From the NCBI GenBank assembly GCA_022841365.1, contig JALHRP010000022.1:1-54495 (forward strand): DNA of 54,495 nt, given 5' to 3'. Position numbers and translations under genes: made by a program. Every line of letters starts with the position of its first letter. The first letter of the stretch is position 1. Positions 11,017-25,308 of the stretch are shown piece after piece. Source of the DNA: Chitinophagaceae bacterium (GTDB lineage: Bacteria; Bacteroidota; Bacteroidia; Chitinophagales; Chitinophagaceae). A model generated the notes under the pieces. It was given only the letters and a program-made list of their open reading frames with translations, was not told the origin of the DNA and ran no database searches.

Positions 11017-12525
11017 ATGGGACAAATCAGGAAACAAGCCATTATCTCCAGTATTGTTATTTACATAGGCTTTTTTGTTGGTTTTATTAATACCTGGTTA
11101 TTTACCAAGAACGGGATTTTTTTACCGCAAGAATATGCACTGACCCGTTTGTTTTTTGATGTAGGACAAATCATGTATGCTGTTGCAAGCCTTGGTTCCA
11201 TTTCAGTTATTTATAAATTCTTCCCTTATTATAAAGATAACCTTGCACCTGAGGAAAATGATTTGGCAACATGGGTGCTTATTACATCACTCATTGGTTT
11301 TTTACTGGTAATTATTGGCGGATTGATCTTTGAACCACTGATTGTACAAAAATTCTCGGGCCGTTCACCATTATTTGTTGATTATTATAAATGGGTATTC
11401 CCGTTTGGGTTGGGACTTTTATTGTTTACACTTTTAGAAACACTGAGTAATAATGCAAGAAAAACCATCTACCCTTCTTTTCTCCGTGAAACGGGTTTCA
11501 GATTAATCACCACGCTACTGATTGTATTGTTCCTGTTTAACACAATCAGCTTCGATCTGTTCATTAAATTATTTGCATTTAGTTTTCTTGTAACCACTTT
11601 CCTACTTGGTATTTCACTGTTTAAAAACGGTCATTTGTCTTTCACGTTCAAGTTGAGCCGTGTAACAAAAAAGTTTAAAGGAAAGATGCTCACACTGGCC
11701 GGCTTTGTTTTTACCGGACAGGTGATTTACATTTTAGCGCAAGTGATGGACAGTATTTTTATTGCCAGTTTAATGGGGTTGATCCCAACCGGTATTTTTG
11801 CACTTTCCTCCTATATCGCCAACCTCATTCAAATTCCGCAACGCAGTATGATCTCCATTACATTGCCTGCATTGTCGCAGGCATGGAAAGATAAAAACAT
11901 GCCGGAGATTGAACGTATCTACAAGCGATCATCCATTAATCTGTTGCTGGCGGCGCTGTTTATCTTTGGAGGTATTTGGCTCAATATTGAAGATGCATTT
12001 CGCCTGCTTGATATTCAATCGGAATATACAACGGGATTAACCGTCATCTTTATCCTTAGTATTTCTCGGATTATTGATGCTGGTACAGGAGTTAATTCAC
12101 AGATCCTGATGACATCCACTCAATGGAAGTTTGAATTTTTAACAGGTGTATTGCTCTTATCAATCAGCTTACCGTTGAACTATGTGCTCATTAAAAAATT
12201 TGGTATTGAAGGAAGTGCTTATGCAAATCTCATATCGTTCAGCATATATAATTTCATTCGTTATTTTTTTCTTTGGAAGCGTTTTCAACTGCAACCCTTC
12301 AGCAGTAAAACAATACTGAGTATTGTAACTGCCGTTGGCGCTTACTTCATCAGCTTTTATTTTTTTCAGGAAATGAGCGGATGGATGGGTATTATTCTGA
12401 GAAGCACAGTATTCACCATTCTATACTTCAGCAGCATCTTTGCATTAAAGCTTACACCTGATGCGATGCAGTTGGCAGAAATAGCGAAAAAGCGTTTCAA
12501 TCCCCCTTCCCCTAAAGGGGAGTAA
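11017..12525 (+). CDS. Polysaccharide flippase (Wzx/MATE-type, MOP superfamily)
   Basis: 502 residues with about 12-14 hydrophobic helices throughout. It starts with a short basic segment (MGQIRKQAIISSIVIYIGFF) typical of PST/Wzx-type exporters. These inner-membrane proteins flip lipid-linked saccharides, or in MurJ-like members lipid II. The substrate cannot be read from sequence, and no glycosyltransferase cluster is adjacent. The last residues NPPSPKGE are encoded by a G/C-run hairpin repeat, so the native C-terminus was probably replaced or extended by that repeat. The gene is convergent with hisA. Confidence 0.85.
   Translation: MGQIRKQAIISSIVIYIGFFVGFINTWLFTKNGIFLPQEYALTRLFFDVGQIMYAVASLGSISVIYKFFPYYKDNLAPEENDLATWVLITSLIGFLLVIIGGLIFEPLIVQKFSGRSPLFVDYYKWVFPFGLGLLLFTLLETLSNNARKTIYPSFLRETGFRLITTLLIVLFLFNTISFDLFIKLFAFSFLVTTFLLGISLFKNGHLSFTFKLSRVTKKFKGKMLTLAGFVFTGQVIYILAQVMDSIFIASLMGLIPTGIFALSSYIANLIQIPQRSMISITLPALSQAWKDKNMPEIERIYKRSSINLLLAALFIFGGIWLNIEDAFRLLDIQSEYTTGLTVIFILSISRIIDAGTGVNSQILMTSTQWKFEFLTGVLLLSISLPLNYVLIKKFGIEGSAYANLISFSIYNFIRYFFLWKRFQLQPFSSKTILSIVTAVGAYFISFYFFQEMSGWMGIILRSTVFTILYFSSIFALKLTPDAMQLAEIAKKRFNPPSPKGE
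12502..12522 (+). repeat. G/C-run hairpin repeat at the 3' end of the flippase gene
   Basis: The sequence is CCCCCTT followed by CCCCTAAAGGGGAG. It supplies the final codons of the flippase (PPSPKGE). The core pairs TCCCCT with AGGGGA around two or so bases. It has no T-run, so I read it as a member of the dispersed repeat family, not as a terminator. Confidence 0.8.
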
Positions 12526-12537
12526 TACAATCCCCGA

Positions 12538-13308
12538 CTATGAGTTAAACCGTTTTAACTCATTCAATGTAACTCTGCCTTCATAAATGGCTTTGCCCAC
12601 GATGGCACCATTGCAGCCGATCTCCGCTAATTCGTCCAGGTCTTTCATAGAGCTTACACCGCCGCTGGCAATGAAATGCAATTCGGGAAATTTTTGAATG
12701 ATGTTTTTGTAGAGTTCTGTTGATGGGCCTTCGAGACGACCATCTTTGCTTACATCGGTGCAGAATATCTGTTGCACCCCATGATTGATATATTTTTCGA
12801 TAAAGTCGTAGATCCAGACATCCGTTGTTTCGAGCCAGCCACCAACAGCAATTTTTTCATTCTTTACATCAGCACCCAATAAAAATTTATCTGCTCCAAA
12901 TTGTTGCAACCAGCTTACAAATTTCGCTTCATCTTTTACAGCAATGCTTCCAACTGTTGCGAATTCGGCACCAGAGTTGAGAACTATTTTTACATCTTCT
13001 TCCTGTTTAATACCACCGCCAAAGTCAATGATGAGTGAGGTTTTAGAAGTGATGGCTTCTAATACTTTCCAATTTTTAACTGCACCCGCTTTTGCACCAT
13101 CAAGATCAACCAAGTGCAAACGCTGCAATCCTGCATCTTCAAATTCCTTGGCTACTTCTAAAGGATGTTCGTTGTAAATTTTCTTTTGTGAATAGTCGCC
13201 TTCGGTTAAACGTACACATTTACCGTCAATGATGTCTATAGCCGGAATGATCTGAAGCCCCCCCGCCCCTAAAGGGGAGCTGGTAGCTGTACTATTTTCT
13301 TTCAACAT
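12538..13308 (-). CDS. hisA: 1-(5-phosphoribosyl)-5-[(5-phosphoribosylamino)methylideneamino]imidazole-4-carboxamide isomerase (ProFAR isomerase)
   Basis: The (beta/alpha)8 barrel is complete from IIPAIDIIDGKCVRL, with catalytic aspartates in PAIDI and in CTDVSKDG and phosphate-binding loops FGGGI and ASGGVSS. It catalyses the fourth step of histidine biosynthesis. Native HisA starts at about MQIIPAID. Here the only usable ATG (13308) lies 17-18 codons earlier, inside the tail of a DUF559 gene, and residues about 9-17 (SSPLGAGG) are encoded by a G/C-run hairpin. The frame stays open upstream to a TGA at 13432. hisH lies upstream in the same direction. hisF is not here. Confidence 0.95.
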   Translation of the reverse strand: MLKENSTATSSPLGAGGLQIIPAIDIIDGKCVRLTEGDYSQKKIYNEHPLEVAKEFEDAGLQRLHLVDLDGAKAGAVKNWKVLEAITSKTSLIIDFGGGIKQEEDVKIVLNSGAEFATVGSIAVKDEAKFVSWLQQFGADKFLLGADVKNEKIAVGGWLETTDVWIYDFIEKYINHGVQQIFCTDVSKDGRLEGPSTELYKNIIQKFPELHFIASGGVSSMKDLDELAEIGCNGAIVGKAIYEGRVTLNELKRFNS

Positions 13309-13703
13309 ATTTAATACTTTGACTTTAATCTCATGAAAAACTTCTTCAAGATTGTATTTTATTTGCCCGTTAGAAAATCTTAAAAAACAAATTCCAAATG
13401 ACTCCAAATTCTTTTGGCGTATTTTATCATTTCATTTCACTTCGTCAACTTCATGAATACTGCCGTCGATTTCAATTGCCAGTTTAATCTTGTGGGCGTA
13501 AAAATCGAGCACATAGTTAGAAGCAGGATGTTGCCTTCTGAACTTTACACCAAATTGATTTTGGCGCAAATAATTGCACAGCAATTCTTCGGTATCTGTA
13601 CATCGATTTCGTAATTCTTCCGCCTTACGAAAAATCAATGGACCTGCTTTGTAAAACATATCATCTTTCATGGTCGTAATCGCCCCCTTTAGGGCTGGGG
13701 CAT
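13256..13703 (-). mobile_element. Putative mobile element: DUF559 gene bracketed by inverted G/C-run hairpins
   Basis: The left end at 13681-13703 (GCCCC, AGCCC, TAAAGGGGGC on the minus strand) and the right end at 13256-13282 (AGCTCCCCTTTAGGGG then CGGGGGGGC) are inverted copies of the same hairpin. They enclose a DUF559 coding region of about 360 bp. The unit sits exactly between hisH, whose last residues and stop are in the left end, and hisA, whose start is inside the unit. What is seen: the inverted ends, the nuclease gene and the junctions. That it moves is inference. Homologous loci without the unit would define target-site duplications. Confidence 0.55.
13309..13671 (-). pseudogene. 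DUF559 (Vsr-like) endonuclease gene interrupted by an in-frame TGA
   Basis: From the ATG at 13671 the frame gives 79 residues with the DUF559 core: RCTDTEELLCNYLR, FRRQHPASNYVLDFY and the acidic IEIDGSIH, like the PD-(D/E)XK fold of Vsr. A TGA at 13432-13434 ends it. The same frame then resumes as NDKIRQKNLESFG, ICFLRFSN and NLEEVFHEIKVKVLN, the family's C-terminal part, and runs without another stop into hisA. A single nonsense change (for example from CGA or AGA) would explain this. The product is either a shortened protein lacking the last strand and helix, or a dead gene. Confidence 0.8.
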
Positions 13704-14369
13704 AGTAAGAAAGTTTTTAAGTATCAGATCACCCACCTTAGCACTCTTCTCCGTATGAAACTGCACACCATAAAAATTATCTTTCTGCACTGCACCTGTA
13801 TATTCCAATCCGTAGTTTGAAGTTGCAATGCAATATGGATTCATTTCTGCATAATAACTATGTACATAATAGATGTAACTATGTTCGGGTACATCTTTGA
13901 ACAGATCAGTTTTCAAGTTGTAAATATCATTCCAACCAACTTGAGGGACTTTAATAACTCCCTTTAGGCCTGCCCGACTGTCAGGCGGGGTTGGGGCAAA
14001 CAACTTCACCTTTGCCGGAATAATTCCCAAACACTCCGTATCACTTTCTTCCGAATATTCAAACAACAACTGCATACCCACACAAATTCCCAATACCGGT
14101 TGCTTTAATTGTTTGATCACTTCGTCCAGTCCTTTCTCCTTCAAACTATCCATGGCACTTCGTGCAGCGCCCACACCGGGAAAGATCACTTTATCAGCAG
14201 CAAATAATTCATCTTTATCATCCGTCACTTTTGCATCAACACCCAAGCGTTCCAATGCAAACAGCACCGACTGAATATTTCCTGCGTTGTATTTTACAAT
14301 TGCTATGTTGCCCCCTCCGCCCCCTGAAGGGGGAACTGGAAAGACTCTGCTATTTTCTGCTGTAATCAT
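13689..14369 (-). CDS. hisH: Imidazole glycerol phosphate synthase, glutaminase subunit
   Basis: Class I glutamine amidotransferase, with the oxyanion region FPGVGAA, nucleophile Cys in GICVGMQLLF and the His-x-Glu pair in VQFHTEKS. It hydrolyses glutamine and channels ammonia to HisF. At 226 residues it exceeds the usual roughly 195-205. Three repeat-encoded parts account for the excess: residues about 8-20 (VFPVPPSGGGGG) before the native start NIAIVKYNAGN, about 124-137 (APTPPDSRAGLKGV), and the last residues MPQP with the stop codon. No methionine follows the N-terminal insertion, so translation must include it. It is followed by the DUF559 element and hisA. Confidence 0.95.
   Translation of the reverse strand: MITAENSRVFPVPPSGGGGGNIAIVKYNAGNIQSVLFALERLGVDAKVTDDKDELFAADKVIFPGVGAARSAMDSLKEKGLDEVIKQLKQPVLGICVGMQLLFEYSEESDTECLGIIPAKVKLFAPTPPDSRAGLKGVIKVPQVGWNDIYNLKTDLFKDVPEHSYIYYVHSYYAEMNPYCIATSNYGLEYTGAVQKDNFYGVQFHTEKSAKVGDLILKNFLTMPQP
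13957..13997 (-). repeat. G/C-run hairpin repeat inside hisH
   Basis: On the coding strand GCCCCAACCCC, CCTGACAGTCGGGCAGG and CCTAAAGGGAG form a longer variant of the repeat with an extra inner inverted segment. It is read in frame as APTPPDSRAGLKG and lies between LFA and VIKVPQVGW of HisH. Confidence 0.8.
14310..14339 (-). repeat. G/C-run hairpin repeat in the hisH N-terminal codons
   Basis: The plus strand reads CCCCCTCCG then CCCCCTGAAGGGGGAACTGG. It is translated on the minus strand as PVPPSGGGGG, immediately before the native HisH start NIAIVKYN. Confidence 0.85.
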
Positions 14370-14409
14370 TTTTCAAAATTCAATTTCATTTTTAACTTTA
14401 AGCTCATTA

Positions 14410-14482
14410 GCGGAAGTAGCTCATTTGGTAGAGCATCAGCTTCCCAAGCTGAGGGTGGCGGGTTCGAGCCCCGTCTTCCGCT
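14410..14482 (+). tRNA. tRNA-Gly (anticodon CCC)
   Basis: A 73-nt cloverleaf: acceptor GCGGAAG/CTTCCGC, D-arm with GTAGAGC, anticodon stem TCAGC/GCTGA with loop TTCCCAA (anticodon CCC), T-arm with GGTTCGAGCCCC and discriminator T. CCA is not encoded, unlike the tRNA-Ser in this window. It lies on the plus strand between two minus-strand genes. Confidence 0.95.
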
Positions 14483-14488
14483 CATTGT

Positions 14489-14574
14489 CTGAACTGGGAC
14501 AAGTGAGATATTTGTGATTTATGGGATGGCAGCTCATCCCAAACATCTCATCCATCCTGTAAATCACAGTTCAG
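14489..14574. repeat. Long imperfect palindromic repeat after tRNA-Gly, overlapping the trpA stop
   Basis: The left arm CTGAACTG...GTGATTTATGGGATG pairs with the right arm CATCCTGTAAATCACAGTTCAG. A partial copy of the right arm (CTCATCCCAA, CACAGTTCAGA) lies at 18714-18757, just past trpF. Its outermost TGA on the minus strand serves as the trpA stop codon. It could also end transcription from either side, but it has no T-run. Confidence 0.8.
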
Positions 14575-15359
14575 ATAATTGTTTTCAAAAAATTCTTTGT
14601 TGTTGCTGCCACATCATTCGTTCCTTCCAATGCCTTAATGTACGCTGTTCCAATGATTGCACCATTCGAATGTGAACATGCCGTATCAAATGTTTGTTTA
14701 TCCTTAATACCAAAACCCACCAACACAGGATTGCTCAACTGCATGGCCTGCAGTTTTTGTAAGTATGTATTTACATCCGTCATGTTCTTATCGCTGCCTG
14801 TCGTAGAGGATGATGAAACTGCATATAAAAAACCTGTGCTCAAGCTGTCTAATTTTTTAATCCGTTCATCACTTGTTTCAGGTGTAACAAGGAAAATGAA
14901 ATCAAGACCGTATTGTTTGATGAAAGCACCATACTCTGTTTCAAATTCATACTCCGGTAAATCAGGTAAGATCAATCCATCCACACCAACGGCCGCCGCC
15001 TCCTTACAAAAACGCTCAAAGCCATATTGTAATACCGGATTCATGTAACCCATTAAAATGATGGGCACATTAATTTCTTTCCGTGCATCTTTCAATTGCG
15101 CAAATAACGTTTCAATCGTCATGCCATTTGCCAAAGCAACTAAGCCACTGTTCTGTATCACCGGACCATCTGCCAACGGATCGCTGTACGGCATTCCTAA
15201 CTCAATTAAATCTGCACCATTGTCTTGTAATGCTTTCATTACGTCCAATGTACTGTCCAGCTGCGGATAGCCTGCGGTGCAGTAGACGTTGAGAATACGT
15301 TGCCCCCCCGCCCCTGAAGGGGTGCTTTGAAACAGTTTGGTAATTCTAGATTCACCCAT
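14571..15359 (-). CDS. trpA: Tryptophan synthase alpha chain
   Basis: 262 residues. The catalytic glutamate and aspartate are in DLIELGMPYSDPLADGP, and GFGIKDKQTF and NGAIIGTAYIKAL are phosphate-binding segments. It cleaves indole-3-glycerol phosphate and passes indole to TrpB. The native start (RITKLFQ) is kept, but residues about 12-20 (STPSGAGGQ), encoded by a G/C-run hairpin, stand where homologs have a few residues before ILNVYCTAGYP. It is the last gene of the trp operon, 55 bp after trpB. The stop TGA lies on the edge of a palindromic repeat. Confidence 0.96.
   Translation of the reverse strand: MGESRITKLFQSTPSGAGGQRILNVYCTAGYPQLDSTLDVMKALQDNGADLIELGMPYSDPLADGPVIQNSGLVALANGMTIETLFAQLKDARKEINVPIILMGYMNPVLQYGFERFCKEAAAVGVDGLILPDLPEYEFETEYGAFIKQYGLDFIFLVTPETSDERIKKLDSLSTGFLYAVSSSSTTGSDKNMTDVNTYLQKLQAMQLSNPVLVGFGIKDKQTFDTACSHSNGAIIGTAYIKALEGTNDVAATTKNFLKTII
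15301..15325 (-). repeat. G/C-run hairpin repeat in the trpA N-terminal codons
   Basis: The plus strand reads GCCCCCCCG then CCCCTGAAGGGGTGC. It is read on the minus strand as STPSGAGGQ. An oppositely oriented copy lies 66 bp away at 15391-15416. Confidence 0.85.
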
Positions 15360-15390
15360 TTTTAATAATCTTAATTGTTAGTGATGTATT

Positions 15391-15416
15391 AGCTCCCCTT
15401 TAGGGGTTGGGGGCTA
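15391..15416. repeat. G/C-run hairpin repeat at the trpB stop codon
   Basis: AGCTCCCCTTTAGGGG then TTGGGGGCTA. It begins at the trpB stop codon and forms an inverted pair with 15301-15325. The stretch between encodes the native TrpA N-terminus, so the two may be separate insertions. Confidence 0.85.
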
Positions 15417-16598
15417 CATGTTTTTCATATAAGTCGCCAAATCCTTATCCCCTCTTCCGCTCAAACAAATAATCACCTGGTCGTCTTCTTTAAACTTATA
15501 ATTGTGCAACACTGCAAACGCATGCGCTGTTTCCAATGCCGGAATAATTCCTTCCAGTCTGCTCACTTCAAACGCAGCATTCAATGCTTCATCATCTGTT
15601 GCACTTAAAAATATACCACGACCACTTTCAAACAAATTTGCATGCATCGGACCAATACCCGGGTAATCCAAACCCGCCGAAATACTATGCGGCTCCACCA
15701 CTTGTCCATCTGCAGTTTGCATCAACAAACTTTTGCTGCCGTGCAAAATACCCGGCTTGCCAAGTTGTGTTGTTGCTGCACTCATGCCACTGTTTACACC
15801 ATGACCGGCTGCTTCTACAGCAATTATCTTTACACTCAACTCATCTAAGAAATGATAGAAAGCACCGGCTGCATTACTGCCACCACCCACACATGCCATC
15901 ACATGCGTTGGTAAATCCTTGCCTGTGTGTTCTTTCAACTGCCAACGCATTTCTTCACTGATCACACTTTGAAACTTCGCCACCATATCGGGATACGGAT
16001 GCGGACCTACCACACTTCCGATGATGTAATGCGTATCGTTGGGATTATTAATCCAGTCACGAATGGCTTCATTCGTTGCATCCTTTAATGTTTTGCTGCC
16101 GCTTGTTGCAGGTATAACTGTTGCACCCAGCATTTTCATACGTGCCACATTCGGCGCCTGGCGTTCAATATCTTTTTCGCCCATATAGACAATGCATTCC
16201 ACACCTTTTAACGCACACACCGTTGCTGTTGCAACACCATGCTGACCAGCACCTGTTTCTGCAATGATGCGTTTTTTACCGAGACGTTCAGCTAATAAAA
16301 TCTGTCCAATCGTGTTATTGATCTTATGTGCACCTGTATGACAAAGATCTTCCCGCTTCAGCCAGATATTTGTGTTGAACTGTGTGCTTAACCTTTGCGC
16401 ATAAAATAACGGTGTCGGACGTCCGACATAATCCTTCAGCAACGCTCTGAACTCTTTTTGAAAAGCAGCATCGCTCATTATATCGAGGTAACGGCTCTGC
16501 AGTTCCTCCACATTCCGATGCAGCATTTCAGGAATATATGCTCCACCGAATTTTCCGTAATAACCTTGCGAAGAAGGTTTTTGATATGTTGTTTCCAT
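15414..16598 (-). CDS. trpB: Tryptophan synthase beta chain
   Basis: 394 residues, normal length. The PLP lysine is K92 in HTGAHKINNT, the PLP phosphate loop is CVGGGSNAAGAF, and the C-terminal CLSGRGDKDLATY is typical. It condenses indole with serine to tryptophan in the alpha2-beta2 complex with TrpA, encoded next. No repeat has entered its coding sequence, but one abuts the stop codon. The upstream neighbour is a non-trp hypothetical gene. Confidence 0.97.
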   Translation of the reverse strand: METTYQKPSSQGYYGKFGGAYIPEMLHRNVEELQSRYLDIMSDAAFQKEFRALLKDYVGRPTPLFYAQRLSTQFNTNIWLKREDLCHTGAHKINNTIGQILLAERLGKKRIIAETGAGQHGVATATVCALKGVECIVYMGEKDIERQAPNVARMKMLGATVIPATSGSKTLKDATNEAIRDWINNPNDTHYIIGSVVGPHPYPDMVAKFQSVISEEMRWQLKEHTGKDLPTHVMACVGGGSNAAGAFYHFLDELSVKIIAVEAAGHGVNSGMSAATTQLGKPGILHGSKSLLMQTADGQVVEPHSISAGLDYPGIGPMHANLFESGRGIFLSATDDEALNAAFEVSRLEGIIPALETAHAFAVLHNYKFKEDDQVIICLSGRGDKDLATYMKNM

Positions 16599-16690
16599 CG
16601 TTTTCTATTTTTAATAATACCGGCTTTTGTTTTTCATGGCATCAACTATTGCGTCGCAATCCTTTCATCGGTTTTGCAAAAATGAATCAG

Positions 16691-17635
16691 TTATTTCTCA
16701 TCTTTACATATAAGTTTCAATTTGGACATTTCTTTATAGAACAACCTTAATCCGTATGTATTTAACCCGCCATAGTCAAATACAACTTTCTTGACTCTGC
16801 CAATATATACTTCAGTTGTATAGCTTGTCTGATCAGAGACACTTGGAACATCATACTTTGATTTCAATTTTAAGTAATCAATTATTGCCAGTATGGTCTC
16901 AATTTTTCTAACATTAGTCTTATCTAATAAGCAAGTTTTAATTCCATTCTCCCATTTTTGCTGAAACAAAGTATCAACAAAAAAATCTTGATACAGTTTA
17001 ATAGTTCCATCCTTATATAATTTAGTAACAGGTATACTTCTACCCATATTCCAAACTTGACTTACTTTAAAAACAATAGAATCAAATTCAACTAAGTCCT
17101 CATAATCACTCTTCCATTCAACAAAAGAGGAAAATTTATGCACCAAAGTATCCGACCTATATAACTTCCTTACGTCACTTTCTGTACTTCCCGGCTTGTG
17201 TATTTTTAAATTCAACAAAACCTCTCCTTTTTTTTGAATCAAATACACTCCTGCTGGAAAAAATTCTGAATACTGATTACCTAAATAAATTAAATTATAA
17301 ACAGTATCTTTGAACGATATAAAGGCATAGACATCATAATTTTTGCGTGAACTGAAAGAAGCCACCAAATCTTTTCTTCCATCCGAATTAAAGTCCGCAA
17401 TAACCCACCTTTGCTTTGCAATCGAATCAACAAATAAAGCCTGCTCTTTTGAATACTTCAGAATAACACTTTCCTGCTCATTGAAATTTATTGTCGGCCA
17501 CTTTATTCTGTTTTGCTTCCCAATCTCCTGGATAAACTTTATTGCGTCATTATCTGATACTATATCCTCTACCCGTAATTGAGAATATGCACGATTTGCA
17601 AATAGGATCATCAGTAAACAAATAACCTTTTCCAT
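16691..17635 (-). CDS. Exported hypothetical protein with a DUF6438-like C-terminal region, inside the trp operon
   Basis: About 314 residues from the ATG at 17635, with a short signal peptide (VICLLMILFANRAYSQ). A calcium-loop-like DFNSDGRKD near residue 100 resembles VCBS/FG-GAP units. The C-terminal third (GTIKLYQDFF to KVVFDYGGLNTYGLR) resembles DUF6438. Function unknown. It lies between trpF and trpB in the same direction but has no evident link to tryptophan. It is clearly more A/T-rich than its neighbours, which suggests a later insertion. The family call is from memory of its pattern, so moderate. Confidence 0.7.
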   Translation of the reverse strand: MEKVICLLMILFANRAYSQLRVEDIVSDNDAIKFIQEIGKQNRIKWPTINFNEQESVILKYSKEQALFVDSIAKQRWVIADFNSDGRKDLVASFSSRKNYDVYAFISFKDTVYNLIYLGNQYSEFFPAGVYLIQKKGEVLLNLKIHKPGSTESDVRKLYRSDTLVHKFSSFVEWKSDYEDLVEFDSIVFKVSQVWNMGRSIPVTKLYKDGTIKLYQDFFVDTLFQQKWENGIKTCLLDKTNVRKIETILAIIDYLKLKSKYDVPSVSDQTSYTTEVYIGRVKKVVFDYGGLNTYGLRLFYKEMSKLKLICKDEK

Positions 17636-17730
17636 AGCTTCTGTATAACATAGTTGATGCACAAGTACTTTTATTTACACAAGCCCTAAGAGCCTTTATT
17701 CCTCAACTACTTAACCTGTCAATTTCAATC

Positions 17731-17850
17731 AGAGTGACGTCATGCCGAGGCACGAGGCATCTCTTACGCCCTTGTTGGTGTTATCACCAACAAGTTAATT
17801 TAAACCTTTTCCCATTCATGTCGTTGGTGAAAACACCAAACGACGGCATG
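17731..17850. repeat. Intergenic repeat with two TTGGTG hairpins
   Basis: GTCATGCCGAGGCACGAGGCAT is followed by CTTGTTGGTG-TTAT-CACCAACAAG (perfect 10-bp stem, 17771-17794) and GTCGTTGGTG-AAAA-CACCAAACGAC (17820-17843). GACGGCATG then mirrors the start of the unit. The whole looks like one palindromic element with nested hairpins between the DUF6438-like gene and trpF. No coding potential. Confidence 0.75.
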
Positions 17851-17880
17851 CTTCTTTCTTACACAACCAATTATCAAATC

Positions 17881-17922
17881 TTTGTTCGACTCTGTGCCTC
17901 CGTGTCTCTGTGTTTAAATCTC
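17881..17922. repeat. CTGTGTCTCTGTG-type intergenic repeat
   Basis: Tandem near-copies of CTCTGTGCCTCCGTGTCTCTGTGTTT abut the 3' end of the first trpF. A related stretch, CTTTGTGTTCTTTGTGTCTTGG, lies at 20251-20300 between trpC and trpD. No coding role seen. Confidence 0.55.
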
Positions 17923-18616
17923 ATCCTCTCAACTCGCCCACAAACTTCTTCACTAATTCCATATCCTTTAAACCCGGTATTGTTTCAAACTTGCTGTTGA
18001 TATCTACAGCAAATAAATCCTTCGCTACTTCTTCCTTTGCAAATTCTTTAATGGCTGCTGCATCGGTTGGTTCAATGCCTCCACTAAGGAAAAATGGTTT
18101 GCCGATGTTCAAGCCTTTCAACATATTCCAGTTAAACTTCTTTCCTGTACCGCCGTATCCTGCACCCATCGTATCAAACATGTACATATCCGCTGCTTCC
18201 ACATAATCTTTAATCATCCAGGGAATATTGTCATCATCCGTAATGCGGAATGCTTTGATCACAGAAATATAATCACTCACCTTTTCACAGAACTTCGGCG
18301 TTTCATCGCCATGCAACTGCACCATATCCAATCCAAAATTCTCCACATGATTAATGATCTCATCGTACGACGCATTTACAAACACACCCACCTTATACAC
18401 TTTCAGCTTCGCCCGTTTCACCTGCACGCCGTTTAAATGTTTCAACACAAACCTCGGCGACTTATGGTAAAAAATCATCCCGGCAAATTCAACACCCATC
18501 TCGCCCAATTGTTGCATCTGTGCAAGATCCGTCATGCCGCAAACTTTAATACGAAACCCTCCCCGCTCCCTGAAGGGAGAGCCTGAAGCCTCGCTATGAT
18601 TTTTTACATCACTCAT
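17921..18616 (-). CDS. trpF: Phosphoribosylanthranilate isomerase, copy 1
   Basis: 231 residues. The general-base cysteine is in KVCGMTD, the general-acid aspartate in MFDTMGAGYGGTGKKF, and the phosphate loop is FLSGGIEPTDA. It performs the Amadori isomerisation of phosphoribosylanthranilate. It is followed, past a repeat and a hypothetical gene, by trpB. The native start would be at about RIKVCG. Instead translation begins at 18616 and residues about 10-20 (GSPFRERGGF) are encoded by a G/C-run hairpin. A second trpF copy lies just upstream, and the two are clearly diverged. Confidence 0.93.
   Translation of the reverse strand: MSDVKNHSEASGSPFRERGGFRIKVCGMTDLAQMQQLGEMGVEFAGMIFYHKSPRFVLKHLNGVQVKRAKLKVYKVGVFVNASYDEIINHVENFGLDMVQLHGDETPKFCEKVSDYISVIKAFRITDDDNIPWMIKDYVEAADMYMFDTMGAGYGGTGKKFNWNMLKGLNIGKPFFLSGGIEPTDAAAIKEFAKEEVAKDLFAVDINSKFETIPGLKDMELVKKFVGELRG
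18556..18586 (-). repeat. G/C-run hairpin repeat in the trpF copy 1 N-terminal codons
   Basis: The plus strand reads CCCTCCCCG then CTCCCTGAAGGGAGAGCC. It is read on the minus strand as GSPFRERGG, in a different frame of the repeat from the one used in HisA, HisH and TrpA. Confidence 0.85.
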
Positions 18617-18673
18617 ATTATACCAGTTTAAAAGTTAAACCGGCAAGCAACAATTGATCTATCTGTTTTATCC

Positions 18674-18757
18674 CGTCCGACGAGGGCGTCTGACGTTGTT
18701 TGCAAATTAACCTGCGCTCATCCCAACAATCCTGTCATCCCACAAATCACAGTTCAG
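18674..18757. repeat. Two adjoining repeat fragments between the trpF copies
   Basis: GTCCGACGAGGGCGTCTGACGTTGT at 18674-18698 recurs nearly unchanged at 34430-34453, downstream of the Lrp gene. Bases 18714-18757 match one arm of the palindrome at 14489-14574. The second fragment ends against the stop codon of the upstream trpF. Confidence 0.75.
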
Positions 18758-18758
18758 A

Positions 18759-19385
18759 CTATTTCATCCCTAACTTAAACTGCAGCACTAAACTCATATC
18801 TTTTTCACCGGGTGCTTTCTCCACTTTGCTGTTAACATCCACACCATAAAAATCAGGATGCTTCAATGCTTTGATTCGTTTTACATCTTCAATCCCAATA
18901 CCACCACTAAGGAAAAACGGTTTTTCAATTTTACTTTTTTCAAGAACACTCCAGTCGAATTGTTTACCGGTGCCGCCTTTCTGATTGCCGCTCTTTGTAT
19001 CAAACAAATAATAATCACAGGCTTCATCATAAGGCGCTACCAACGCATCAATATCTTTCACGGATTCATCAATATGAAATACTTTGATCACTTCCACATC
19101 TTCGTTAAGATCAGAACAAAACTCAGGTGTTTCTTCGCCATGCAGTTGCACCACATCCAAACCATAATCCTCAATGGCATCCAGAATATCGCTGTACGAT
19201 GGGTTCACAAACACACCTACTTTCTTCATGTCGTAATCTGCTTTCTTGATCTCTTTCTTATCCAACTTTCCTTCCACATAACGGGGAGAGTTCTTGTCGA
19301 AAATAAATCCGACAAAATCAATATCCAGTCCTTCTAACTGTTGTACCTGTTTCAATTGGGTAATACCGCAAACTTTAATATTCAT
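18759..19385 (-). CDS. trpF: Phosphoribosylanthranilate isomerase, copy 2
   Basis: 208 residues, normal length with native start MNIKVCGIT. The catalytic cysteine (VCGIT), aspartate (LFDTKSGNQKGGTGKQF) and phosphate loop (FLSGGIGIED) are intact. It lies between trpC and trpF copy 1 in operon order. Both copies keep the catalytic residues and share long stretches such as KVGVFVN and VVQLHG/MVQLHG, so this is an old tandem duplication, not an assembly artefact. One copy may have shifted substrate, or the pair may form a heteromer. That is inference. Confidence 0.93.
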   Translation of the reverse strand: MNIKVCGITQLKQVQQLEGLDIDFVGFIFDKNSPRYVEGKLDKKEIKKADYDMKKVGVFVNPSYSDILDAIEDYGLDVVQLHGEETPEFCSDLNEDVEVIKVFHIDESVKDIDALVAPYDEACDYYLFDTKSGNQKGGTGKQFDWSVLEKSKIEKPFFLSGGIGIEDVKRIKALKHPDFYGVDVNSKVEKAPGEKDMSLVLQFKLGMK

Positions 19386-19400
19386 TTTTACATTTTAACT

Positions 19401-19463
19401 GTTGTGGGCTAAAGCCCAATTAGAAATTTATTTTGTTACCCCGGTCTAAAGACCGGGGTTATT
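19401..19463. repeat. Double hairpin repeat between trpC and trpF
   Basis: TGGGCTAAAGCCCA (19405-19418) and ACCCCGGTC-TAAA-GACCGGGGT (19438-19459) are two perfect stems with TAAA-type loops, separated by an A/T stretch. The second stem followed by TAACAAAA could weaken transcription on the minus strand, but there is no true T-run. It resembles a dispersed element. Confidence 0.75.
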
Positions 19464-20249
19464 TTAAACTGACTTTAATCGAGATACAAATTCTTCAAAT
19501 GCTTTTCCAGGGTTCTCCTCTTTCATAAAATTTTCACCAATCAAAAATCCTCTGAACCCGTTTGCTTTGAACAATAATATATTTTCAACGGAACTGATGC
19601 CGCTCTCTGCTACTTTAATTTTATCTGTCGGAATTTGTTTCGCCATGCGTAAACTCCGTTCAATATCAACTTCAAATGTTTTCAGGTTACGATTGTTGAT
19701 GCCAACAATTTCTGTCTCCTCACAAATATGTTCCAGCTCTTCTTCTGCATGCAGCTCCAGCAACACTTCCAGCCCCAGCGATTTCGCAAAGGTCGCTAAT
19801 CGTTTCACTTCTGCAGGCGATAAACAGGCGGCGATGAGCAAAATTACATCAGCACCCATTGCTTTTGCTTCTGAAATCTGGTATTCATCAACAATGAAGT
19901 CTTTCCGTAAGATCGGAATTTCATTTACTCTTGCTTTCAATAGATCATCAGTGCTGCCTCCAAAGAACTGTTCATCGGTTAACACACTCAAACAGGATGC
20001 ACCGTTGTTTGTATAAGCAGTTGTTACTTCCACAACATCAGCCTTGCCATTGATTACACCTTTTGATGGCGATTGACGTTTGAACTCTGCAATAATTCCT
20101 GTCTTGTTATCATCGAGCAGGAAATGTTTTAATGAAAGGACAGGTCTTGCATACAAAAACTGTTGCTGTAATTCAGCAACACTGGTTTTTGTTTTCCGCT
20201 CTTCTACTTCAATTCGTTTCTGAACAATGATTTTATCTAAAATATTCAT
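19464..20249 (-). CDS. trpC: Indole-3-glycerol phosphate synthase
   Basis: 261 residues. The start segment ILDKIIVQKRIEVEERK, the catalytic lysine stretch IIAEFKRQSPSKG, LSVLTDEQFFGGS, ILRKDFIVDEYQI and the C-terminal AESGISS and FLIGENFM are all present. It closes the indole ring from CdRP. It is a stand-alone enzyme, not fused to TrpF as in enterobacteria. It lies in the trp operon, 50 bp after trpD. Confidence 0.97.
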   Translation of the reverse strand: MNILDKIIVQKRIEVEERKTKTSVAELQQQFLYARPVLSLKHFLLDDNKTGIIAEFKRQSPSKGVINGKADVVEVTTAYTNNGASCLSVLTDEQFFGGSTDDLLKARVNEIPILRKDFIVDEYQISEAKAMGADVILLIAACLSPAEVKRLATFAKSLGLEVLLELHAEEELEHICEETEIVGINNRNLKTFEVDIERSLRMAKQIPTDKIKVAESGISSVENILLFKANGFRGFLIGENFMKEENPGKAFEEFVSRLKSV

Positions 20250-20250
20250 G

Positions 20251-20300
20251 GTTTATCTCTTCGTGAATCTTTGTGTTCTTTGTGTCTTGGTGGTTCAATA
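20251..20300. repeat. CTTTGTGTTCTTTGTGTC-type repeat between trpD and trpC
   Basis: The 50-bp gap is filled by CTTCGTGAATCTTTGTG and TTCTTTGTGTCTTGGTGG, a pseudo-tandem motif related to 17881-17922. No ribosome-binding site or hairpin was seen in it. Confidence 0.5.
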
Positions 20301-21296
20301 CTAATTATTCAACTCAATCAACTTTTTCAAACATCCATTTGCTCTTCCGCTTTCTAAACTTTCAACGGCTGCTGCAAATGCATCATCATAAGTTTTATAA
20401 GCTCCTGTGCAATACAAACCCATTGCTGCATTCGCCATCACCACTGCATTCTGTGCCCATGTTCCTTCACCGCTTAATATTTTCGTGAAGATCTTCGCTG
20501 CTTCTTCAATGCTGTTGCCACCGTGGATATCGGTTTGCTGCACCGTTCGTTTGCCCAGCTGTTCCGGCGTCATAATAAATTCACCTTTGTTGGTAATCAC
20601 TTTGGTATCGTTAGTTAATGAAATTTCATCGTATCCATCCAGACTGTGAATAATGGTGAACGCACCACCCGTTTGTTGTAATAAATAATTATACACTCTT
20701 GCCATTTCCAAACTAAACACACCCACCAATTGATACGTCGGGTTTGCAGGATTCACCATTGGCCCCAGCATATTAAAGAAGGTACGCATACCTAAATTCT
20801 TACGGATAGGCCCAACTGTTTTTAACGCCGGATGAAACATGGGTGCATGCATGAAACAAATATTTGCTTCCTCCACTTCACGCTTCAACTGATCAACATT
20901 GTTCTTGAATTTATAGCCGAGCTGCTCCATTACATTACTTGAGCCGCTGATGGTTGATGCGCCATAGTTACCATGCTTGGCCACTTTTTGTCCCGCACCT
21001 GCCACAATAAAACAAGAGAGTGTAGAAATGTTAAAGGTGTTTTTTCCATCACCACCTGTGCCGACAATATCCAACACAGCATGTCCGTTCAAATCCACAG
21101 GTACACAAAGTTCCAGCAACGCATCTCGAAAACCTTGCAGCTCTTCAATAGTAATGCTGCGCATAAGATACACCGTCATGAATGCCGTGATCTCATGTTC
21201 GTTGTATACGCCCTTGCCAATATTGAGCAATACATCTTTTGCTTGCTCTCTTGACAAACTTTTATGTTCAAATAATAACTGAAGTATCTTTTTCAT
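20301..21296 (-). CDS. trpD: Anthranilate phosphoribosyltransferase
   Basis: About 331 residues from MKKILQLLFEHKSLS. The PRPP site GTGGDGKNTFNIST, KHGNYGASTISGSSNVMEQLG and NMLGPMVNPANP identify the family. It attaches phosphoribose to anthranilate. ATG at 21296 is preferred. The frame is open upstream through MSEFENLK, but that stretch is low-complexity TGAAAAT repeat and homologs begin at MKK. It is separate from trpG, which lies just upstream. Confidence 0.96.
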   Translation of the reverse strand: MKKILQLLFEHKSLSREQAKDVLLNIGKGVYNEHEITAFMTVYLMRSITIEELQGFRDALLELCVPVDLNGHAVLDIVGTGGDGKNTFNISTLSCFIVAGAGQKVAKHGNYGASTISGSSNVMEQLGYKFKNNVDQLKREVEEANICFMHAPMFHPALKTVGPIRKNLGMRTFFNMLGPMVNPANPTYQLVGVFSLEMARVYNYLLQQTGGAFTIIHSLDGYDEISLTNDTKVITNKGEFIMTPEQLGKRTVQQTDIHGGNSIEEAAKIFTKILSGEGTWAQNAVVMANAAMGLYCTGAYKTYDDAFAAAVESLESGRANGCLKKLIELNN

Positions 21297-21327
21297 TTTC
21301 AAATTTTCAAATTCACTCATTTTCAAA

Positions 21328-21921
21328 TTAAGCCTTCAACCAATTACGAAGGATGTCTTCTCCTTTTGGCGTCAACACACTTTCCGGATGAAACTGCACG
21401 CCCTGCACATCATATGTTTTATGTTGTAAGGCCATGATCATTCCTGTTTCATCTTCGGCTGTTACTTCCAATTCAGCAGGAAAGCCTTCTTTGTTTACCA
21501 CCCAGCTATGGTAACGGCCAACTTCAATTGTATCGGGCAGATCATTCAACACAGCATTTTGTTTTTTGGATCTTGGATTTTGGATTTTTATTGGTGTTGC
21601 TACTCCATGAAATACTGTTGACAAGTTCGTCAGAGTTCCGCCGAATGCTTCAGCAATTGCCTGATGACCTAAACAAACACCCAGAATAGATTTTGTTGCT
21701 GCATATTCTTTTATCAACGGCAACAACAACCCTGCTTCTTCAGGAATACCGGGACCTGGCGATAAAATAATCTTATCATACTCTTTCACCTTTTCCAATG
21801 GAATCTGATCGTTGCGATACACATCTACTTTAATGTGTGTGATCTTCTCCACCAAATGAACAAGGTTGTATGTGAAACTGTCGTAATTATCGAATACTAA
21901 TATTTTGAAATTGTAGTTCAT
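21328..21921 (-). CDS. trpG: Anthranilate synthase component II (glutamine amidotransferase)
   Basis: 197 residues. The oxyanion segment SPGPGIPEEAG, nucleophile Cys in GVCLGHQAIAEAFGG and VQFHPES with the catalytic histidine are intact. It supplies ammonia to TrpE, and may also serve aminodeoxychorismate synthase. Residues about 110-120 (KIQNPRSKKQN) are encoded by an A/T-rich direct repeat of the type found in intergenic DNA at 7400-7440, in a surface region before the LPDTIEVGRYHSW motif. It lies 8 bp after trpE. Confidence 0.96.
   Translation of the reverse strand: MNYNFKILVFDNYDSFTYNLVHLVEKITHIKVDVYRNDQIPLEKVKEYDKIILSPGPGIPEEAGLLLPLIKEYAATKSILGVCLGHQAIAEAFGGTLTNLSTVFHGVATPIKIQNPRSKKQNAVLNDLPDTIEVGRYHSWVVNKEGFPAELEVTAEDETGMIMALQHKTYDVQGVQFHPESVLTPKGEDILRNWLKA
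21561..21592 (-). repeat. TCCAAAATCC-type repeat inside trpG
   Basis: On the coding strand AAAATCCAAAATCCAAG and ATCCAAAAAACAAAA are read in frame as KIQNPRSKKQN. Nearly the same string occurs in the non-coding gap around 7400-7430. Confidence 0.75.
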
Positions 21922-21929
21922 CTTAAAAT

Positions 21930-23393
21930 TTAGGGTTGTAAAGTCCCTCCTTCGGAGGGATTTAGGGAGGTTGCTCTTTCAATCGCCTTCTTCAACGCTC
22001 CCAATTTATGATTCACTTCCTGTAATTCGTTTTCAGGATTACTTGCTGCTACCACACCTGCACCTGCCTGATACACCAGTGTATTTTGCTTACTTAAAAA
22101 CGTACGGATCATGATAGCATGATTACAACTTCCATCAAAACCCATAAAGCCAATACCACCACCGTAATAACTACGGGCCGTTGATTCGTACGCATCAATC
22201 AGCTGCATGGCTTTAATTTTTGGCGCACCACTCAAAGTACCTGCTGGAAATGTTTTGGCTAATAATTCAAATGGATTAGAGTTTGGGCGAACTTTCGCCA
22301 CCACTTCACTCACTAAATGAATCACATGACTGTAATACTGTACCTGTCTGTAATGCGCCACACTCACCTCATCACAAACACGACTCAAATCATTTCTTGC
22401 CAAATCAACCAACATCACATGCTCTGCATTTTCTTTTGCATCTTTCAACAAGCGTTCTGCTTCCTGCTGATCAACCTCATCATCACCTGTACGTTTAAAT
22501 GTACCTGCAATGGGATGAACAACAGCTTTACCGTTATTAATAATGATTTGCGATTCGGGTGATGAACCCATCAATTTATAATCTCCATAATCAAAAAAGA
22601 ATAAATAAGGAGAAGGATTGATGCTGCGCAATGCACGGTACACATTAAATTCATCGCCACTGAACGATTGCTGAAATCTTCTGCTCAACACAATTTGAAA
22701 CACATCACCTCTGTGGCAGCTTGCAATTCCTTTCTTTACCATCTCCACATATTCTTCGTTAGTTACATTCGAACTTTCTTCACCTTTTACTGCAAATGGA
22801 TAAACAGGTACATCTTTACTGCGTATTAAACTTTCAACAACAGCTACATCACTTTCAATGCCGGCGATCTTGTTTTCACAAATAAACAATTCATCTTTAT
22901 GATGATTGATGGCAATCACGTATTGATAAAAGCGATACCGCATTAACGGAATAGCAGCAGGGTCTTTCCGTTCTGCATTCAGTTTCACCGTATCAAAGAA
23001 TTGAACTGCATCGTACGTTGTATAACCATAAAGACCTTGTGCAAACTTAGAAGCCCCCTCTAAATCTCCCCCGGAGTGAGAGACTTTTGAAACCTCAAAC
23101 CTGTTTAAAAAATCAAACAACTGTTGCGGTACTTCTGTTGGTTGTTTGATGGCAATACGTTCCGGTTTTTGTCCAGGTAACTTAAACTCAATGCTGGTGG
23201 TGGAAGTAATTTCCATTCCTGCAATGGCATTGATACCAATGAACGACCAGCTGTTTTCGGCTGCATGATGATCTGTACTTTCCAGCAGGATCGTATCCCG
23301 GAACCGATCTCTCAACCGCAGATAAATTCCAACAGGCGTAAACACATCTGCCAGCATTTTTTTGCACGTTGTTTCTATGTTAATTTTCTTCAT
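21930..23393 (-). CDS. trpE: Anthranilate synthase component I
   Basis: 487 residues. The chorismate-binding core is intact: DVFQIVLSRRF, MGSSPE, HPIAGTFKRTG, EHVMLVDLARNDLSRVC and FPAGTLSGAPKIKAM. The N-terminal LLES motif, which binds feedback tryptophan in this family, is kept (residues 36-39). With TrpG it makes anthranilate from chorismate. Two repeat-encoded segments are present: residues about 103-115 (SHSGGDLEGASKF) between the N-terminal subdomains, and the C-terminal tail NPSEGGTLQP. It is the first structural gene of the operon, behind an attenuator. Confidence 0.97.
   Translation of the reverse strand: MKKINIETTCKKMLADVFTPVGIYLRLRDRFRDTILLESTDHHAAENSWSFIGINAIAGMEITSTTSIEFKLPGQKPERIAIKQPTEVPQQLFDFLNRFEVSKVSHSGGDLEGASKFAQGLYGYTTYDAVQFFDTVKLNAERKDPAAIPLMRYRFYQYVIAINHHKDELFICENKIAGIESDVAVVESLIRSKDVPVYPFAVKGEESSNVTNEEYVEMVKKGIASCHRGDVFQIVLSRRFQQSFSGDEFNVYRALRSINPSPYLFFFDYGDYKLMGSSPESQIIINNGKAVVHPIAGTFKRTGDDEVDQQEAERLLKDAKENAEHVMLVDLARNDLSRVCDEVSVAHYRQVQYYSHVIHLVSEVVAKVRPNSNPFELLAKTFPAGTLSGAPKIKAMQLIDAYESTARSYYGGGIGFMGFDGSCNHAIMIRTFLSKQNTLVYQAGAGVVAASNPENELQEVNHKLGALKKAIERATSLNPSEGGTLQP
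21933..21972 (-). repeat. G/C-run hairpin repeat forming the trpE C-terminal codons
   Basis: CCCTCCTTCGGAGGG forms a tight stem with a flanking CCCTAAA/TTTAGGG. It is read as SLNPSEGGTLQP, the last residues of TrpE. It also lies just before trpG. Confidence 0.8.
23051..23084 (-). repeat. G/C-run repeat inside trpE
   Basis: The plus strand reads AAGCCCCCTCTAAATC then TCCCCCGGAGTGAGAG. It is read in frame on the minus strand as SHSGGDLEGASK. CTCTCACTCCGGGGG-type elements are a variant of the same family. Confidence 0.75.
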
Positions 23394-23465
23394 AACCCCT
23401 ATCCCCTAAAGGGGAATTTGATTTTTTAATGATTTGCCTTTCTCCCCTTTAGGGGATGGGGGCAT
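23394..23465. mobile_element. MITE-like inverted pair of G/C-run hairpins between attenuator and trpE
   Basis: AACCCCTATCCCCTAAAGGGG at 23395-23415 and CCCCTTTAGGGGATGGGGGC at 23444-23463 are inverted copies. They enclose about 28 bp of A/T-rich DNA without a gene. The arrangement of the ends is the same as in the DUF559 unit at 13256-13703. It starts directly before the trpE ATG, so it forms the trpE translation-initiation region. Confidence 0.65.
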
Positions 23466-24221: not shown

Positions 24222-25253
24222 TCAGGGACTTACAAAGTTTAAACTTACATTGAAAAAAAACGGGTTACCTAATTTACTTCTGAAAAACAACTGATCATCT
24301 TTTCTTGCATCGTATTGATTCATTACATCATATCTCCAGTTGTAACGCAAACCGCCCTGTACATTCAGCCATACAAAACCAAACAGTCGCTTATCCCACA
24401 TCAGTCTTGGTTTCAGTTCTCCACGTTGAATGTATACTTCGCCCTTGGGACTCGGCGTACGCATCCAGTATTGATTTCCTTCCAGCTCATACCCTAACTG
24501 TAAAATATTAGAGGTTGAAAAATTATAGCGCAGGTGCCCACGTGCAGGCAACAGCAATTCCATACCCCAATCATCGTTAAATGTTTTATTCCATAAAATG
24601 ATTGGCACTGCAAGAGCCTGTCCTGCCCTATATGTTCTGGAAACTCCAATACCAAACATATTTTTTTCTGATTTCTTCCAGCCATAAATAGCAGCACCAC
24701 TAAAAGTTAATGCCCGGCTGTTTACTTCTTTCAGATTTTGAAACACGCCGTTAAAATCGGCACTGGCCTGAAAAATGAGGAAGTTTTTTTCATTCAACGG
24801 TTTAAAGATGGTGGTATTGATACCGGCTGTATGCATGCCCTTGTCGTTCAGTTTTGTTATAAACGGATTCTTGCCATCGTTTGCTTCAAATGCATATCCG
24901 CTTTGCCAGTAATTGGCACCCATTTGCCAGATGATTTTGGTAGTAGACACAACAGGAATGTTTACCTGCGCTCTTAAACCGGATAAACGATTTACGTTGA
25001 AAGTTTGTGGCGCCAGTGCTGTTGGGTATAATGGCACATTGGGCATGTTAAAAGATCCGTGGTATTCGTATCCAATACTCACAATCCTGTTGGGTGTCTG
25101 GTTCAATACTTTTTGTGTAACATAGCGTTTAACGCCGGCCACATCACCAAAAGAACTGTAATCGGTATTATCTACTACGGTAGAAGTATCAGTAACCTGA
25201 GCACCTGCAACAAGACAGGTAAAGCAGAAAGCAAGCAGCAGCAGTTGTTTCAT
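24222..25253 (-). CDS. DUF6268-type outer-membrane beta-barrel protein
   Basis: About 343 residues with signal peptide MKQLLLLAFCFTCLVAGAQ. Alternating amphipathic strands fill the rest (for example VSIGYEYHGSF, LRAQVNIPVV, IIWQMGANYWQSG), with a C-terminal FFFNVSLNFVSP ending typical of a barrel. This matches the DUF6268 family of Bacteroidota envelope proteins, function unknown. It ends within 50 bases of the DUF2147 terminator. ATG at 25253 is chosen because the signal peptide begins there. Confidence 0.78.
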   Translation of the reverse strand: MKQLLLLAFCFTCLVAGAQVTDTSTVVDNTDYSSFGDVAGVKRYVTQKVLNQTPNRIVSIGYEYHGSFNMPNVPLYPTALAPQTFNVNRLSGLRAQVNIPVVSTTKIIWQMGANYWQSGYAFEANDGKNPFITKLNDKGMHTAGINTTIFKPLNEKNFLIFQASADFNGVFQNLKEVNSRALTFSGAAIYGWKKSEKNMFGIGVSRTYRAGQALAVPIILWNKTFNDDWGMELLLPARGHLRYNFSTSNILQLGYELEGNQYWMRTPSPKGEVYIQRGELKPRLMWDKRLFGFVWLNVQGGLRYNWRYDVMNQYDARKDDQLFFRSKLGNPFFFNVSLNFVSP

Positions 25254-25308
25254 ATGCATATAATCGTTTCAGTATTTAACAAAGATAACTGTTGAAAATC
25301 TTTTTCAT

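Follow-up and report, generated by a model that had tools for sequence, protein, structure and literature searches.

Candidate selfish DUF559 nucleases with palindromic coding ends in housekeeping enzymes of Bacteroidota

The trp-his locus and its nuclease insertion

The window, that is, the whole stretch of DNA analysed, covers positions 1-54,495 of contig JALHRP010000022.1 from a Chitinophagaceae bacterium (GCA_022841365.1; source genome G000, 4.56 Mb, 326 contigs, 4.09% contamination). Its minus strand carries a trp-his gene cluster (12.5-23.5 kb), accompanied by copies of a G/C-rich palindrome that probably forms the ends of an element encoding a DUF559 endonuclease. The approximate palindromic unit in gene orientation is YCCCCTTYAGGGG-NN-GGGGGC; among 30 copies read, a longer tail is found as GCGGAGGG in four and as CGGGGGGG in two. 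With up to one mismatch, CCCCTNAAGGGG gives 15 strand-matches at 8 places of the window, for 0.39 expected. An earlier reading of the window (the original prediction) had described in-frame palindromic repeats in its biosynthetic genes and called for a genome-wide search. This search returned 41 exact copies of CCCCTNAAGGGG in the 4.56-Mb genome, 7 of them in the window, and none of the reversed-pattern control. The window palindromes are genuine and occur far above chance.

The peptide SSPLGAGG, previously taken as a solo repeat in HisA, belongs to the right end of a ~440-bp insertion with a DUF559 nuclease. On the gene strand, the order is hisH, an inverted end copy, the DUF559 gene, the right end, and hisA. 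The right end (13258..13281, minus strand; core match, relatives, and model) encodes SSPLGAGG immediately ahead of HisA, where CTT takes the place of the native ATG codon; the nearest in-frame ATG is at 13308. The DUF559 domain (13318..13626, minus strand; PF04480, E 2.3e-25) has one TGA inside, and its ATG is at 13671. The left end (13684..13700, plus strand; model 11.2 bits, E 0.038), inverted with respect to the right one, supplies the last HisH residues and the stop codon (TMPQP-stop). In the sister species G009 and G011, DUF559, the end, and HisA form a single open frame of 377 and 390 amino acids (aa), respectively. A different arrangement is seen at loci L059 (G019) and L054 (G016), where HisA shares one long frame with an upstream sequence, acetyltransferase-like by its residues, and has no DUF559 insert.

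DUF559 nucleases inside host enzymes

The source genome has seven DUF559 matches. Five are located in frame inside AroC, adenine deaminase (Ade), AcsA, LeuS, and MetH, all confirmed as host proteins by their Pfam domains; the other two are a stand-alone gene (L070) and the window copy at hisH-hisA. AroC and LeuS, with their inserts, still score above the curated NCBIfam cut-offs. End peptides surround the nuclease, as exemplified in LeuS by PPLTPPEGEN and SPSGGDLEGAS.

Occupied and empty alleles are found side by side within the genus. The AroC site measures 612, 612, and 609 nt in G000, G004, and G009, versus 123 nt in nine genus members; it is also empty in G011 and G002, amounting to 11 empty genus members versus 3 occupied. 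AroC of G003 matches a 143-residue query at 99%, without the insert. A predicted fold of the AroC-DUF559 fusion from 4 sequences was poor (predicted local distance difference test, pLDDT, 49) and was not used. In LeuS, site 1 harbors a full element in G000, G012, and G004 and is empty in the other 11 of 14 genomes. LeuS site 2 carries lone ends ("solos") of +57 nt in G000 and G012 and of +36 nt in G002 and G009, versus 63 nt in nine genomes and 54 nt in one, and full nucleases in G020, G026, and G100, which ties the solos to the full elements. In a tree of LeuS host sequences, the deep forks of which are weak, the seven occupancy patterns tried need 1-4 changes each.

No intein domain was detected by Pfam scan in 10 proteins at 1e-10 and in 4 proteins at E ≤1, and no intron RNA by Rfam at gathering thresholds in 7 loci. 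The product appears, from its sequence, to be a host enzyme with a nuclease domain built in, without splicing signature. That the fused proteins are made and work is suggested by their conservation and by the fact that some hosts, LeuS among them, are essential, with the caveat of a second LeuS-like frame in the source genome (L196).

Some loci display further features. Two DUF559 domains share one host frame in LeuS of G026 (L154, 1315 aa), in MetH of Flavobacterium micromati (L314, 1185 aa), and in an IleS-like protein (L265, 1442 aa). The F. micromati MetH locus also holds a SAM riboswitch and two Flavo-1 RNAs (858-980, 1065-1150, and 2517-2602). Two DUF559 matches of equal score lie ~565 bp apart in G009 (C174:78783 and 79348), a possible recent tandem duplication. 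The source genome has, on another contig, a second and more distant LeuS-like frame, 70% identical (L196, C107:4818-5681), which may be contamination.

The nuclease

A set of 86 distinct DUF559 domains of at least 85 aa was drawn from the fetched loci; two full-length G009 C174 matches, for example, were left out. Residues E19, W23, Q39, D48, D61, and H65 are identical in 86/86 domains, and E59 is found in 99%. The conserved acidic and histidine residues characteristic of EDxHD nucleases are present and are the putative catalytic residues. The ratio of non-synonymous to synonymous substitutions (dN/dS) is 0.04-0.17 in the 8 computable of 10 embedded pairs and 0.07 in one stand-alone pair, values that are rough, five pairs having dS >1. 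Judged by these ratios, DUF559 is under purifying selection.

The structure model of DUF559 (pLDDT 85) has as nearest neighbors NGO0050 (3hrl) and the homing endonuclease I-Bth0305I (3r3p, Foldseek 2.1e-4). Both entries also come up in a profile search (3r3p at 1.7e-6); E. coli Vsr ranks lower in the structure search (E 0.11). The predicted fold is the Vsr-like catalytic fold of the EDxHD family.

In the unrooted nuclease tree, a branch (95/93) separates 41 domains, all embedded and residing in many host genes. Nine embedded copies fall outside this branch, including those of HisA, ArgB, and MetH of the source genome. Tree neighbors located in different hosts (MetG with Ade) or sites (LeuS site 1 with site 2) point to jumps, while LeuS-only groups across genera suggest either site fidelity or descent.

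Element ends and close palindrome pairs

The ends of 85 DUF559 loci were examined by comparing the left flank with the reverse-complemented right flank, with the threshold set at 14.58, the 99th percentile of a reversed control. Inverted ends exceed this threshold at 44/85 loci versus 26/420 mispaired flanks, in similar shares of in-frame (25/49) and stand-alone (19/36) copies. Of the tails that could be called among 86 loci, those of left flanks are outward in 41 cases and inward in 6, and those of right flanks outward in 42, inward in 12, and both in 1.

Palindromes also occur as close pairs (20-250 bp); among the pairs listed, 26/28 face outward and 21/28 are spaced 72-132 bp apart, as expected of miniature copies. 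These pairs are short units with terminal inverted repeats, as are miniature inverted-repeat transposable elements (MITEs). Over 14 genus genomes, the palindrome count follows the DUF559 count (Spearman 0.81, p 5e-4, uncorrected for kinship).

Distribution across Bacteroidota

DUF559 is present in 11/14 genus genomes, in 38/79 family genomes, and, at E ≤1e-15, in 126/296 phylum genomes, each count including the source genome. Among the matches listed for the phylum (144 DUF559 outside the source genome), 42 are in open frames of at least 300 aa. In the 86-domain set, 50 domains are labelled by host or as long-frame, and the other 36 stand alone. Named genomes were scanned with an alignment built on embedded copies, so that the proportions obtained are not a population share: among the loci listed (80 of 549 confirmed), 76/83 domains and 73/80 loci are in frames of at least 300 aa. 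The hosts include LeuS, IleS, ValS, MetG, MetH, RecG, CinA, AroC, AcsA, adenine deaminase, and others, named from motifs except for ten Pfam-scanned proteins and the F. micromati MetH.

Embedded copies are carried by isolates, including Flavobacterium micromati DSM 17659 (two copies in MetH), F. cucumis DSM 18830, Winogradskyella sediminis DSM 28134, Salegentibacter holothuriorum DSM 23405, Pedobacter arcticus, Tenacibaculum agarivorans, and Marinilabilia rubra, and binning error is thus no explanation for them. A Flavobacterium-type palindrome is dispersed in 7/15 named genomes, with a reversed control of 0 and with counts inflated by overlapping matches.

Short palindrome copies in the window

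The peptides originally listed for HisA, HisH, TrpA, TrpF, and TrpE are all present in the window translations. Four had been placed at N-termini; only three copies, those of HisA, HisH, and TrpF, are located at the native start, that of TrpA being ~12 codons inside the gene. The HisH start copy (14310..14336, minus strand; core match, peptide, and relatives) encodes VPPSGGGGG, previously given as PVPPSGGGGG, and the TrpF copy (18557..18580, minus strand; model 8.0 bits, E 0.42, and relatives) SPFRERGG, previously GSPFRERGG. Two TrpF paralogs stand side by side at 17921-19385, with a palindrome at the start of one only. The TrpA copy (15303..15326, minus strand; core match, peptide, and relatives) adds 15 nt and reads STPSGAGG; its outward-facing partner lies at the trpB-trpA junction (15395..15414, plus strand; model 21.8 bits).

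Inside HisH, TPPDSRAGLKG (13959..13991, minus strand) corresponds to a weak and degenerate match (model 4.7 bits, E ~5) at a variable site; its reading as a repeat stands on G012, which has a clear element at this position, and on G009, which has a variant. In TrpE, SHSGGDLEG proved to be an in-frame insertion, as first proposed, of an end type that differs from the others. It is a solo right end (23052..23093, minus strand; VSKVSHSGGDLEGA, +21 nt, also in G012; relatives and peptide) matching that of the LeuS nuclease insert of the source genome: SHSGGDLEGA is near-identical to SPSGGDLEGAS, standing alone. The TrpE C-terminus (21933..21968, minus strand; SLNPSEGGTLQP; peptide and end comparison) resembles the left end of the MetG nuclease insert in G004 (L112). 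An outward-facing palindrome pair is located just upstream of trpE (23396..23414, minus strand, and 23444..23463, plus strand; models 20.3 and 22.1 bits).

The flippase, encoded on the plus strand, ends in a solo palindrome (12502..12520, minus strand; exact core, model 19.7 bits) that yields NPPSPKGE-stop (12499-12522). A solo inside ValS (28485..28520, plus strand; TPPPSAEAGRGL; peptide and relatives) lies outside the range of the original prediction, which overlooked it. Elsewhere in the source genome, further solos occur in long frames that resemble, by their motifs, AroA (L005) and CobT (L016); another one, in opposite orientation, is inside a long frame at L020. At 24417-24461, RTPSPKGEVYIQRGE in a 345-aa protein (24222-25259) resembles a left-end peptide, but a search of this position gave no clear hairpin.

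NCBIfam models for TrpA, HisH, HisA, TrpF, and TrpE are the best matches of the respective proteins. TrpA, HisH, and HisA are above the curated cut-off, and TrpF and TrpE below it.

As had been predicted, most relatives of the same genus lack the listed residues. The 21 nt of TrpE are found in G000 and G012 and are absent as DNA in G007, G003, G010, G011, and G002 and as protein in G013, G009, and G008, G001 being left out of this comparison. The 15 nt of TrpA occur only in G000, the site measuring 54 nt in 10/10 other genomes. The ValS solo is shared with G012 and absent in 9/9 other relatives read. All internal inserts measured, in TrpE, TrpA, and LeuS, have lengths divisible by three, as in-frame residence would have it.

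The native ATG is kept by HisA in 8/11 genomes (replaced in G000, G009, and G011), by TrpF in 7/11 (replaced in G000, G012, and G009; TTG in G008), and by HisH in 8/12 (replaced in G000, G013, G001, and G009). As the native ATG of HisA and TrpF is gone in occupied genomes, translation must start upstream and read the repeat. Simple N-terminal misannotation is ruled out on this ground for HisA and TrpF, and also for HisH in two genomes, G000 and G013; the HisH genes of G001 and G009 retain a GTG that could act as the start, with which a misannotated N-terminus would be compatible.

A probable homing-type selfish element

Taken together, occupied and empty alleles, kept frame, inverted ends, conserved residues, purifying selection, and the many hosts across the phylum make up the sequence evidence. 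They argue that DUF559 is probably a selfish nuclease of the homing type that has palindromic coding ends and resides in host proteins without splicing; its mobility and activity are inferred. The element would consist of two G/C-rich palindromes, usually with outward tails, around a DUF559 endonuclease of Vsr/EDxHD fold. From end to end, the element can be open for translation in the frame of the host gene, which would give the host protein the nuclease as an additional domain. The nuclease might cut the empty allele, the palindromic ends, or both; repair would then install the element. Spread may occur by homing-like copying or by end-directed insertion, which the present data do not separate. 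Survivors would be only those insertions that are in frame at tolerant places, be it within housekeeping enzymes or at the ends of these proteins. Solo ends and inverted pairs ~100 bp apart may represent deletion products that lost the middle or miniature copies moved in trans.

Several points weigh against this interpretation. Mobility and nuclease cutting are deduced from sequence, and neither has been observed. Inspection by eye of the AroC nuclease insertion revealed no target-site duplication, and no exact target motif emerged. At 41/85 DUF559 loci the flanks score under the inverted-repeat threshold, and some tails point inward, including those of the MetH copy of the source genome (L071), of L109, and of L147. 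G005 (2 DUF559, 1 palindrome) and G013 (0 DUF559, 9 palindromes) oppose the correlation of counts. The Flavobacterium-type palindrome is absent in 8/15 named genomes with embedded copies, whose own end types were not searched for. Site sharing across genera could also be descent with losses.

An unlikely explanation is that the palindromes are independent repeats of the repetitive extragenic palindromic (REP) or MITE type, moved by, for example, a Y1 (REP-associated tyrosine, RAYT) transposase, with DUF559 as a flanked or captured passenger. The source genome has five Y1 transposases, solos are far more numerous than full elements, and REPs inside open reading frames are already known (PMC3733652). 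However, none of the five Y1 loci read has the G-tailed palindrome; other palindromes flank them, though CCCCTTAGGGGC is found near L032. Moreover, palindromes bracket DUF559 at many loci, and their number tracks that of DUF559. The flanks of the Y1 genes, with ACCCCGACTTTTAAGTCGGGG at L031, GTCCC-type repeats and CCCCTTAGGGGC at L032, and GCTCCGTAGGAGC at L033, apparently belong to separate repeat systems.

Decidedly improbable is a domesticated domain, in which DUF559 would be retained because it serves the host, for example in DNA repair or regulation. Strong purifying selection would agree with such a role, as would the Caulobacter DUF559 protein predicted to act in mismatch repair (PMC12907096). 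Occupancy is nevertheless patchy among close species, unrelated hosts fall within one part of the nuclease tree, and partial and broken copies exist. An intein- or intron-like insert, removed by an unrecognised splicing activity, is more improbable still. In-frame insertion in conserved housekeeping enzymes is typical of inteins, but neither an intein domain (Pfam, proteins scanned) nor an intron (Rfam, 7 loci) was detected, and the solos keep the frame while being too short for any splicing domain. Scarcely credible is an artefact of chimeric assembly, binning, or misannotated N-termini, which the 326 contigs and 4.09% contamination might favor, along with N-terminal REPs that may go untranslated (PMC3733652), since the same junctions recur in sister genomes, isolates carry embedded copies with host domains on both sides, and the native ATG is lost from HisA and TrpF of occupied genomes and from HisH of G000 and G013, HisH of G001 and G009 keeping the possible GTG start.

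A broader claim, for which the chances are about even, is that the homing-type nuclease defines a new class of selfish elements: palindrome-ended, wholly translatable, and invading essential enzymes as a permanent unspliced domain, with one lineage specialised in this lifestyle throughout the phylum, and with decay and miniature copies seeding protein segments and gene starts. Homing nucleases are usually described as entering essential genes harmlessly by means of introns or inteins. The present one seems to invade such genes without a splicing partner, by being translated through. If true, this would provide an autonomous partner for protein-coding palindromes, a biological context for DUF559, and a natural catalogue of the sites at which essential enzymes tolerate a domain of ~150 residues.

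Comparison with known systems

In the literature searched, no account was found of unspliced host-embedded DUF559 or of its link with palindromes, and no mention of the end peptides; coverage of subscription journals was thin, and a prior description is possible. Two papers place a DUF559 gene in the EDxHD homing endonuclease family (PMC9403480) and assign DUF559 to Vsr-like proteins (PMC12907096). With EDxHD homing endonucleases such as I-Bth0305I, the present nucleases share the fold, the profile match, and residence of the nuclease gene in conserved host genes. They differ in that no intron or intein partner was found here, the nuclease is an internal domain of a host enzyme, and the ends are dispersed genome-wide; homing is putative. 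Inteins likewise reside in frame in housekeeping enzymes with a nuclease domain, whereas here no intein domain was found and short solos stay in the protein.

The REP/RAYT systems resemble the present palindromes as dispersed short palindromes, with dimers, some copies in open reading frames, and some providing a stop codon (PMC3733652). The REP-type GTAG or CGTC tag was not seen by eye beside the hairpin in 30 copies, and the palindromes are partnered here by a Vsr-fold nuclease, not by a Y1 transposase. The original prediction had likened the repeats to Rickettsia palindromic elements (RPEs), which are palindromic repeats in frame in unrelated metabolic proteins (PMC10969869). This likeness, drawn from descriptions and not from sequence, is retained for the short copies only, which are in frame and read as protein in another phylum. 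It does not extend to the element as a whole, which had been missed: unlike RPEs, the present palindromes are the termini of a nuclease element and flank a nuclease gene of their own.

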